Virus record (IMG/VR): IMGVR_UViG_3300042566_000110
Location: 1 to 36,855 of that record
Strand: one strand, 5' to 3'
From: a virus
DNA length: 36,855 nucleotides
The number at the start of each line of letters is the position of its first letter. Position 1 is the first letter of the stretch. The position numbers and the translations under genes are program-made. The notes under the pieces are model-generated. The model saw nothing but the letters and a program-made list of their open reading frames with translations. It was not told the origin of the DNA and did not search any database. This document shows positions 728-36,855 of this stretch, one piece after another.

Positions 728-754
728 TCCTCACCTGCTGTTTTTAGGTGAGGA
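728..754 (+). repeat. 9-bp hairpin with GGTGAGG arms
   Basis: TCCTCACCT (728-736) and AGGTGAGGA (746-754) form a perfect 9-bp inverted repeat around a T-rich 9-nt loop. It begins 26 nt after the primase-helicase stop. It could act as a weak transcription end or as a paired protein-binding site made from two repeat units in opposite orientation. Confidence 0.55.
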
Positions 755-806
755 AAAGGTGAGGAAAGGTGAGGAAGAATACCACCTGAACCTTACCTCC
801 TCACCC

Positions 807-820
807 CCCCTATATAGGGG
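807..820. repeat. 14-bp perfect palindrome with TATATA centre
   Basis: CCCCTATATAGGGG is self-complementary over 14 bp. It is flanked by longer imperfect arms: 791-806 reads as an approximate reverse complement of 818-834. The AT core inside GC arms, centred in the GGTGAGG cluster, could be a dyad of an origin or an operator. Confidence 0.55.
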
Positions 821-888
821 TGAGGAAGGTGAGGAGGTGAGGAAGGTGAGTGAGGTGGTGAGGTGAGGAAGACAAGAGGAGAGGCATC

Positions 889-2685: not shown

Positions 2686-3975
2686 ATGTCTTCCAAGAGC
2701 CAGAACATCGTTATCCCGTACGCCCCTCGGCCATTGCAGCGTGACTTGCACGCGGCGATGGATGCCAAGCGGTGGGGTGTGGTTGTGTGTCACCGCCGAT
2801 TTGGCAAGACGGTTTGGGCGATCAATCACATTTTGCGTGATGCGATCATGTCGCAGAAGTCGAATCCTCGGTATGCGTACATGGCGCCGACCTACAGGCA
2901 GGCGAAGAATGTTGCGTGGGATTATTTGAAGCAGTTTGCGGGTGCGATCCCTGGTGTGAAGTTTCACGAGACGGAATTGCGGTGTGACTTGCCGACGGGT
3001 GGTCGGATTAGTTTGCTCGGTGCTGAGAACCCCGACAGCCTAAGAGGCATTTACTTGGACGGCTGCGTGATGGACGAGGTTGCGCAGATGCCTGAGAATG
3101 TTTTCCCTGAGGTTATTCGACCGGCGCTGTCGGATCGGAAGGGTTGGGCTGTGTTTGTCGGCACGCCGAAGGGTCACAATGCTTTTTACGATTTGTATGA
3201 GCAGGCCAGCGGCAATGACGATTGGCTGTGCGTTGTGAACAAGGCGAGTGAGACGGGGATCTTGGACGAGGAGGAATTGACGGCTGCGCAGCAGACGATG
3301 ACGGACGACCAGTATCAGCAGGAGTTTGAGTGCAGTTGGAATGCGAACATTCCTGGTGCGATTTATGGGAAGGAGTTGGAGGCTGCGCAGGCTGGTGGTC
3401 GGATCTGCAAGGTTCCGTATGATCCTGCGCACAAGGTTGATACCTGGTGGGATTTGGGGGTTGGGGACAGCACGGCGGTTTGGTTTACGCAGACGGTTGG
3501 TCGTGCTGTTCATGTGATTGATTTTTATGAGGCTCGGAACGAGGGGTTGCCGCATTATTGTGAGGTGTTGAACAAGCGGGGATATTTGTACGGGACACAT
3601 AATGCGCCGCATGATATAGAGGTTCGGGAGTTGGGAAGCGGGAAGAGTAGGCGTGAGGTTGCCTGGGACTTGGGTTTGAACTTTCGGGTTGTGCCTAGGT
3701 TACCGATTGAGGATGGCATTCATGCGGCTCAGATGTTGATCCCGCGTTTGTGGTTTGACCGGGATCGGTGTAATGTTGGTTTGGAGGCATTGCGGTCGTA
3801 TCATCGTGCGTACAATGAGCGGACGCGGAGTTTTCGGGCGAATCCTGTGCATGATTGGACGAGTCATGCGTCTGATGCGTTTCGGTACTTTGCGGTTGGG
3901 TATAGAGAGGCTGGGCCTATGTTGAAGGCCCCACAACGGCAGGCGGAGATGGATTACGATCCGTTTGCGGCATGA
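2686..3975 (+). CDS. terL: Terminase large subunit
   Basis: This is the ATPase-nuclease motor that pumps DNA into the prohead and cuts it. The start at 2686 is chosen because TGAGG lies just upstream and homologous proteins begin near here; the open frame back to 2497 reads through the structured gap. The 429-aa protein has a Walker A-like CHRRFGKT (residues 35-42) and Walker B VMDE (128-131). Nuclease motifs are WWDLGVGDST with D256 and a C-terminal HDWTSHASDAFRY (389-401). Codons end mostly in G/T, in sharp contrast to TerS. Confidence 0.95.
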   Translation: MSSKSQNIVIPYAPRPLQRDLHAAMDAKRWGVVVCHRRFGKTVWAINHILRDAIMSQKSNPRYAYMAPTYRQAKNVAWDYLKQFAGAIPGVKFHETELRCDLPTGGRISLLGAENPDSLRGIYLDGCVMDEVAQMPENVFPEVIRPALSDRKGWAVFVGTPKGHNAFYDLYEQASGNDDWLCVVNKASETGILDEEELTAAQQTMTDDQYQQEFECSWNANIPGAIYGKELEAAQAGGRICKVPYDPAHKVDTWWDLGVGDSTAVWFTQTVGRAVHVIDFYEARNEGLPHYCEVLNKRGYLYGTHNAPHDIEVRELGSGKSRREVAWDLGLNFRVVPRLPIEDGIHAAQMLIPRLWFDRDRCNVGLEALRSYHRAYNERTRSFRANPVHDWTSHASDAFRYFAVGYREAGPMLKAPQRQAEMDYDPFAA

Positions 3976-35308: not shown

Positions 35309-35364
35309 AAGTTATCCAGGCAGGATGAGTGTCAAACAGGCCAGGAAGCCACGGGAACAATACA

Positions 35365-36855
35365 ATGCAAGACAAACTACTGCAAGCACAGCCTGACCAG
35401 ATCGAAAGCTTCATCCGCTACATCACAGACGGATGGGATGAGGTCGGCCCAGCACAGATAGAGCTGCGCTGCATCTCAGCCACCAGGCAGGTCAGCGCCG
35501 CACGCTTCAAGCACACCGACATCAACGACGCAGTGCAGCACGCGCAGGCCATGAACGCTGCACACCAGAACGTCTACATGTGCATCAACCCAATCAGATC
35601 GGACGCCCAGATCCCGGCAGGCAAAGGCGCCAAGGACACCGACATCCTGGCCGCCCTCTACTGCTTCGCCGACGCAGACAGCGACAACTCCATGCGCAAC
35701 GTCATCGCCCTGGCAGGCCCGCAGTTCACCATGAGCGTGAAGACAGGCACGACACCCTATGTCCGAGGCCACGCATACTGGCGCCTCGAAGAGCCGTGCT
35801 ACAACCTCGACGCCTGGCGTGGCGTGCAGGCCAGCATCGCCGCCAGCCTCGGAACAGATCCAGCGGTCATCAACCCATCCCGCATCATGCGCGTGGCAGG
35901 TACGGTGTCATGGCCAAACGACGACAAGAAGAGCCGAGGCTACCAGCCCGAGCTGACAACCCTGCGCACAGAGTTCAGCACCGATCGTGATCCTGTCCCC
36001 TTCGAGCGCATGATGCGAGCCTTCCCGCCCACACAGCAGCGCACCACAGCGTCAGCAGACGCACCAGCCGGCACAGGTCTGCAGATCGATCTCGGCCAGC
36101 AAGCTATGGACCGCGCCCTCGCAGAAGCCGACATCCTGCAAGGCAACAACTGGCACGCCAACATCATCCGCCTGGTCGCCTCATACGTCGCACGCGGTCT
36201 GGCAGACAGCGAGATCCACGCCATCACCGATCGCCTAACCCTTACAGGCTACACCACCGAAGACACACGCAGAGAAGTGCAGCAGGCGATCGACGGTGCC
36301 AGAGCCAAAGGCTGGACACCGCAGCCCGATCCCGTCCAGCAAAAGATGGCTGACCAAGTGCCAGCCCAAACCTTTGACGCGCCAGCACCAGAACAACAGG
36401 CCGACCAGGCAACCTGGCCAACCCCGATCGAAGAATTCAACCCGCTCACCCTGCCACGCAGGCAGTGGATCTACGGTCGAACCTACATCAGGGGCTACGT
36501 CAGCCTCACAGCATCAGCCGGCGGCATCGGCAAGACCAGCCTCACAATGGTCGAAGCCGTCGCCATAGCCACAGGCCGCAAGCTCCTAGACCAAGACGTT
36601 CACGAGCGCACAAAGGTCTGGCTGGTCAACCTTGAAGACCCGCGCAGCGAAAGCCTCCTGCGCCTCGCAGCCGTCATGCAGCACTACAGCATCGCTCACA
36701 AAGATCTGGCAGGCTGGCTCTTCCTCGACGGGGAAGATGACATCCGCATCACCCTGGCCGCCGAAACAAGAGACGGCGTGACAGAGAACGATGCGCTGCT
36801 GAACTACATGATCAACAAAGTCAAAGCCTTGGGCATAGGGGTGATCCTCATAGAC
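35365..36855 (+). CDS. PrimPol-RepA helicase fusion, N-terminal part (continues at base 1)
   Basis: This is 497 codons, open to the window edge and in frame with base 1. The N-terminal primase domain (about 1-200) is AEP/RepB-like: YCFADADSDN with D103 and D105, GHAYWRL with H136, and NPSRIMRVAGTVSWPN (170-185). A linker rich in Pro/Gln follows. The RepA-like helicase has Walker A AGGIGKTS (385-392) and reaches the Walker B Asp at residue 497, the last base of the window. The enzyme would prime and unwind phage DNA; a separate polymerase must be supplied. ATG 35365 has only a weak GGGAA ribosome site. Confidence 0.9.
   Translation, partial: MQDKLLQAQPDQIESFIRYITDGWDEVGPAQIELRCISATRQVSAARFKHTDINDAVQHAQAMNAAHQNVYMCINPIRSDAQIPAGKGAKDTDILAALYCFADADSDNSMRNVIALAGPQFTMSVKTGTTPYVRGHAYWRLEEPCYNLDAWRGVQASIAASLGTDPAVINPSRIMRVAGTVSWPNDDKKSRGYQPELTTLRTEFSTDRDPVPFERMMRAFPPTQQRTTASADAPAGTGLQIDLGQQAMDRALAEADILQGNNWHANIIRLVASYVARGLADSEIHAITDRLTLTGYTTEDTRREVQQAIDGARAKGWTPQPDPVQQKMADQVPAQTFDAPAPEQQADQATWPTPIEEFNPLTLPRRQWIYGRTYIRGYVSLTASAGGIGKTSLTMVEAVAIATGRKLLDQDVHERTKVWLVNLEDPRSESLLRLAAVMQHYSIAHKDLAGWLFLDGEDDIRITLAAETRDGVTENDALLNYMINKVKALGIGVILID

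Follow-up and report, generated by a model that had tools for sequence, protein, structure and literature searches.

A circularly permuted phage genome carries GGTGAGG words in a probable iteron-type origin that may be read by the winged helix of its primase-helicase

In the IncQ plasmid RSF1010, the helicase RepA, the primase RepB', and RepC act at the iteron-containing origin oriV. The alpha protein of satellite phage P4 unites a primase, a helicase, and a C-terminal winged-helix origin-binding domain in one polypeptide, and the type I iterons of P4 begin with GGTGA. Primases (AEPs) of the PrimQH type occur in fusions with RepA/DnaB-type ATPases that end in a winged helix, and this helix was suggested, as a prediction without sites, as a possible origin-recognition element (Kazlauskas et al. 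2018, PMC5862659). In the PLE satellites of Vibrio cholerae, the RepA_N domain and the origin iterons co-vary and are exchanged as modules (PMC8263062).

The window analysed here is the whole stretch of 36,855 nucleotides of the IMG/VR virus record IMGVR_UViG_3300042566_000110. It is a circularly permuted genome, a point missed by the initial annotation, and therefore the gene of the primase/RepA-type helicase spans the window ends, with positions 35329–36855 joined to 1–702 on the plus strand. The 5' part (35329–36855) encodes the AEP-like half and the start of the AAA_25 ATPase, and the 3' part (1–702) corresponds to residues 510–742 of the intact 742-residue homologue found in locus L026. 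The N-terminus of the helicase is AEP-like, with a weak match to 6zp9 (E 0.003) and a match to phrog_906, whereas the middle is a RepA-type AAA_25 ATPase (RSF1010 RepA, PDB 1g8y, E 2.8e-9; AAA_25, E 4.9e-34). The C-terminal domain, encoded by positions 406–699 on the plus strand, was modelled by AlphaFold2 as a winged helix-turn-helix with a pLDDT of 90. In fold comparisons, it matches winged helices in general only (RecQ RQC, MarR, and PadR types), and a sequence search for solved structures gave no close relative of the domain. The P4 alpha protein is absent from the fold-search matches of the domain, an absence that carries no weight. A primase, a helicase, and a C-terminal winged helix are thus combined in one protein, with the primase half assigned from weak AEP matches.

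As in RSF1010, a primase and a helicase are associated with an iteron-type array, here a putative origin, and the homology of the helicase half to RepA predicts a hexameric helicase of the RepA family. Unlike in RSF1010, the primase and helicase form a single protein, which is proposed to read 7-mer words, as opposed to the 20-bp iterons of RSF1010, with a winged helix at its C-terminal end. No RepC-like protein was recognised nearby; P0002 and P0003, the proteins near the array, gave no family match. The locus shares with P4 alpha the three-part domain plan and words beginning with GGTGA, but its ATPase is of the RecA-type AAA_25 class, whereas P4 alpha is a superfamily 3 helicase, and no homology was seen between the C-terminal domains. 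The domain plan is also that of the PrimQH fusions; for the AEP half itself, the match is the weak one to 6zp9. As in PLE, the DNA-binding domain of the putative initiator co-varies with the iterons, and modules are exchanged. However, PLE has two module types and no residue-to-base rule, whereas the domain here is unrelated, many lineages are involved, and single letters are switched in every copy. The domain plan and the suggestion of a winged helix at the origin (PMC5862659) and the covariation of initiators with iterons (PMC8263062) are already known. The literature that we searched contains no description of such arrays, of a residue-to-base rule, or of frequent whole-array rewriting, and a search for GGTGAGG itself returned unrelated papers only.

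The array occupies positions 729–868 (unstranded), starts 26 nt past the helicase stop codon (702), and precedes the GTG start codon (889) of the gene of a 193-residue protein (P0002, 889–1470, plus strand). Exact copies of GGTGAGG begin at 747, 758, 768, 819, 828, 836, 857, and 862 on the plus strand and at 729 and 799 on the minus strand, and a near copy, GGTGAGT, lies at 845–851. Eight direct, two inverted, and one near copy placed directly after the primase-helicase gene, together with a perfect dyad and a 9-bp hairpin built from the same word, had been described in the initial annotation, and all these features were confirmed. The first hairpin (728–754, unstranded), in a layout common to many relatives, pairs the inverted word TCCTCACCT at 728–736 with the direct word AGGTGAGGA at 746–754. 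It is followed by two more words, a word-free spacer, the central dyad, and further words up to position 868. The central dyad (798–826, unstranded) has an inverted and a direct word as arms, and its perfect core CCCCTATATAGGGG at 807–820 lies inside the 10-bp inverted repeat TCCTCACCCC/GGGGTGAGGA at 798–807/817–826. The window dyad contains a TATATA core at 811–816, and dyad centres have a mean AT content of 61%, compared to 51% for arrays. As single-stranded DNA, the array region has a folding energy of -31.8 kcal/mol, compared to -15.5 kcal/mol for dinucleotide shuffles (z -6.0). Five more copies of GGTGAGG are scattered across the other 36.7 kb, with a chance expectation of 4.7 for the whole window, and apart from shifted versions of GGTGAGG, a scan of the genome found no 7-mer with more than four copies per 140 nt. 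The GGTGAGG array is real and far from chance. It has several direct repeats beside a putative initiator gene, as iteron origins do, and its words are 7 nt long and irregularly spaced, which sets them apart from 20-bp iterons. Host DnaA boxes are common at iteron origins, although not essential, and no DnaA box TTATNCACA was found near the array with up to one mismatch allowed.

Searches with the 193-residue protein and the 3' part of the helicase yielded 103 viral loci, which further scans extended to 235 related loci. An array was defined as at least four identical words per 200 nt and was looked for within 2.6 kb downstream of the helicase. Such arrays are present in 218 of the 235 loci and in none of 193 upstream coding controls, so that an absence of repeats from close relatives, which would have spoken against the origin suggested in the initial annotation, was looked for and not found. 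The layout of the downstream region is kept across the relatives, whereas the word is not: most copies inside one phage have the same word, and lineages differ. The first 103 loci contain GGTGAGG, GGTGTGG, GGTGCGG, GGTGGGG, ACTGTGG, ACTGCGG, and AGTGTGG, and the overall set is GGTG[A/C/G/T]GG, ACTG[A/C/T]GG, and AGTGTGG. Loci L071 and L080, which have near-identical helicases, differ in letter 2 in 10 of 10 copies and in none of the 60 other word letters, and their spacers are mostly the same. Therefore, the copies were rewritten in place and not solely swapped as a block.

In a first alignment of the loci, the residue X of the wing motif R-X-G-R tracked letter 5 of the word, and a Gln/Arg position before the second helix tracked the first letters. 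In the window, these residues are Q722 (codon 637–639, plus strand), which the AlphaFold2 model places in the turn of the wing, and Q673 (codon 490–492, plus strand), placed just before the helix formed by residues 34–41 of the domain; residue-letter matching pairs them with letters 5 and 1, respectively. The rule was frozen before any new loci were inspected, three further scans served as the test set, and lineages were defined as groups at 90% domain identity. For letter 5, the frozen rule was correct in 28 of 28 training lineages and in all 31 new lineages with a call, while three new lineages had wing residues outside its scope. For the first two letters, it was correct in 26 of 28 training and 30 of 34 new lineages. 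The combination of R673 and Q722, absent from the training loci, goes with ACTGAGG, a word not seen before, as the rule demands. Because the distinction of AC from GG was too strict for letters 1 and 2, as revealed by AGTGTGG lineages, the second version of the rule addressed letter 1 only; it also paired Asn with C, Lys before Arg with G, and Arg with G. This version, fixed and then applied to two more scans, assigned both letters correctly for every one of the 37 new domain sequences that have a clear array; these do not represent 37 independent events, because many of them are closely similar. The rule also holds for L258 and L259, two loci of a third collection that come from genome assemblies. 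In a reciprocal search that started from the DNA, 44 contigs contained a GGTGAGG hairpin array, and all 36 of those that hold the core domain have Q673 and Q722. In general, protein-DNA recognition matches Gln to A, Asp to C, Lys to G, and small side chains to T, and the pairings agree with this background.

The rule has exceptions. Loci L191–L193 have Q722 together with G as letter 5, and the start of their wing is changed from Asp to Ala. An arginine in the wing goes with T in L119 and L285/L286 and with G in L117, and it reads as ambiguous for letter 5. Letters 1 and 2 are less tightly set than letter 5, since AGTGTGG occurs with either Gln or Arg, and letters 2, 6, and 7 also vary, outside the rule. 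Seven loci of the third set had first been scored as lacking a cluster (L284, L285, L286, L288, L292, L303, and L312). Inspection of the sequences of all of these except L286 revealed arrays of variant words with a letter 5 that fits the rule in four, namely GGTGGGA in L284, L292, and L312 and GGTGAGG/CCTGAGG in L303; L285 has GGTGTGC with an Arg wing, which is off the rule, and L288 has no array. No array was found within 2.6 kb of the L059 helicase, for which ACTGCGG had been predicted, and the contig of L036 ends too early for its prediction to bear on the rule. A tally of TGNGG by its middle letter was dropped because coding sequence contributed false words, and counts of whole 7-mers were used instead.

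As candidate readers, the initial annotation had named the AEP, an HTH protein, and the 193-residue protein; the evidence instead favours the winged helix at the C-terminal end of the primase-helicase. A scan of 677 helicase columns and 191 columns of the 193-residue protein, without prior choice, gave residue 722 a score of 0.68 for letter 5 (next helicase column 0.35) and residue 673 a score of 0.84 for letter 1 (next 0.47; best P0002 column 0.22). In close pairs that differ in letter 5, residue 722 differs in all, compared to 7% of same-letter pairs. A tree built from columns outside the C-terminal domain requires a minimum of 17 changes of letter 5 and 15 of letter 1. Where branches are independent, the residue moved as predicted in 8 of 8 cases for A and Gln, in about 12 of 13 for T, and in 7–8 of 9 for letter 1, and never the opposite way. 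Locus L016 resembles the window in its AEP half, 193-residue protein (85% identity), HTH protein, and terminase, and has another ATPase/C-terminal region and the word TGTAGGA, while L421 differs in having a TOPRIM primase and is similar in its RepA-type ATPase, its winged helix, and its array. Therefore, the array follows the helicase and its C-terminal domain and not the primase type, the 193-residue protein, or the terminase.

These data bear on three other explanations. The 193-residue protein, which constantly adjoins the array and has no assigned function, would have to read the words as iterons or as a partition site. This is very unlikely, because its best column scores 0.30 for letter 5 and the protein is 85–97% identical between loci with different words, including pairs at 96–97%. 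Even less probably, the array is a pac or cos site that the small terminase TerS recognises to start packaging. Although the genes of the small and large terminases are nearby, the small one at about 1.8 kb, the best TerS column, from the 68 of 218 loci in which TerS was found, reaches 0.52 and 0.34 for letters 5 and 1, respectively, different words stand beside 98.7% identical TerS proteins, and L016 combines a similar TerS with another word. Both TerS and P0002 were rejected as readers after the column scans, in which they fall below the helicase residues. It is also scarcely credible that the match between residue and word reflects shared descent of co-inherited neighbours and has no functional meaning. 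The array does adjoin the gene and has at times moved with it (L016 and L085), but the residue followed the recurrent changes of letter 5, distant clades share residue-letter pairs, individual columns rise above the rest of the 677, an unseen word was predicted, and ten copies were rewritten in place.

We consider it highly probable, on the strength of these sequence comparisons, that the array is an iteron-type origin and that the winged helix binds its words, with residues 722 and 673 setting letters 5 and 1. The iteron-like origin recognised by an initiator, as suggested in the initial annotation, is thus strongly supported by the arrays of the relatives, by the prediction of letters from two residues of a DNA-binding domain, and by a change in the sign of the GC skew. 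The skew is negative over the 3 kb before base 500 and +0.16 in the 500-nt segment containing the array, with genes on both sides on the plus strand, and it is higher downstream of the array in 41 of 54 lineages, which are not phylogenetically independent; we regard it as modest, supportive evidence only. In the proposed mechanism, the primase/RepA-type helicase of the phage would itself bind the GGTGAGG words through its C-terminal winged helix. Residue 722 would set letter 5 (Gln for A; Asp or Asn for C; Thr, Ala, Ser, or His for T; Lys in KKGR-like wings for G), and residue 673, just before the second helix, would set letter 1 (Gln for G, Arg for A). Occupied words would load the hexamer of the helicase, for which opening or extrusion of the AT-cored central dyad would provide single strands, and the fused primase half would then begin synthesis. 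We strongly infer the code that links residues 722 and 673 to the letters of the word, and we infer replication from the array, melting of the AT core, physical contact of the winged helix with the words, and loading of the helicase. Alternatively, the array could be an operator through which the C-terminal domain or another protein controls transcription of the 193-residue protein and terminase genes, for example in a switch from replication to late expression, with replication starting elsewhere. The array directly precedes the 193-residue protein gene in nearly all relatives, and many iteron sites double as operators. However, the probable reader combines a replicative helicase with a primase, an operator needs less than an AT-cored dyad and up to ten words, and the GC skew changes sign at the array, which makes this explanation improbable, although operator function may be a second role of the array.

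Beyond the origin itself, the comparisons raise the possibility of a modular recognition code, in which one residue of the wing picks base 5 and one residue at a second site picks base 1 of every origin word. Lineages would repeatedly change the reader and every copy of the word in step. Closely related phages would thereby cease to have an origin in common, perhaps as an escape from relatives or parasites that make use of it or attack it. We see the chances for and against this broader proposal as evenly balanced. A likely origin and reader are named for a large, almost uncultured group of phages, and the question of which protein reads the iterons becomes a two-residue prediction that a single swap could test. 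The hundreds of natural reader-word pairs are rare data on the joint change of a DNA-binding protein and ten targets, and they also bear on why origin words diversify, with exclusion of co-infecting relatives or satellites as possible drivers.

Several loci depart from the common arrangement. The 193-residue protein family has members in 242 of the searched loci and is mostly helical by prediction; family and fold searches gave no known family and no convincing fold match, and the protein is perhaps a replication accessory protein. In L085 (3328–5051), GGTGCGG and ACTGCGG arrays follow one another with a relic of a helicase 3' end between them, as one reader-array module displaces another. The helicase with its GGTGCGG array lies upstream of the relic helicase end and the ACTGCGG array, and here the reader and array moved together. 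The assignment of ACTGCGG to L085–L091, an apparent breach of the rule, was rejected because this word belongs to the relic of the older helicase end and the imported helicase has GGTGCGG. Loci L013–L018 retain the phage backbone but differ in the ATPase/C-terminal region and have TGTAGGA words upstream of the 193-residue protein gene; they represent a putative second reader-word family. In L027 (5700–6490) and L008, close relatives of the window, the array is interrupted by an extra small open reading frame, and a long GC-rich hairpin flanked by words takes the place of the central dyad. Locus L425 has a GGTGAGG array at 3477 on a 4.9-kb contig with a terminase and without the helicase or 193-residue protein gene, and is either a fragment or a different element. 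The array of L139 (4354–4513) mixes ACTGTGG with AGTGTGG, while its near relative L130 has mainly AGTGTGG; the mixed array may be a transitional state in a change of word.

Nearly all the contigs come from metagenomes, and the only cultured phage matched was Rhizobium phage RHph_X2_26, with 36% identity over the ATPase and without an array. Because the named, more distant relatives are circular plasmids of Rhodoplanes, Methylobacterium, Microvirga, and Caenibius, several of them with phage genes, an alphaproteobacterial host is likely. These plasmids (L262, L263, L264, L265, and L267) carry arrays after a related helicase, some of which consist of other words (GGTGACGC, TTGCGGAAG).
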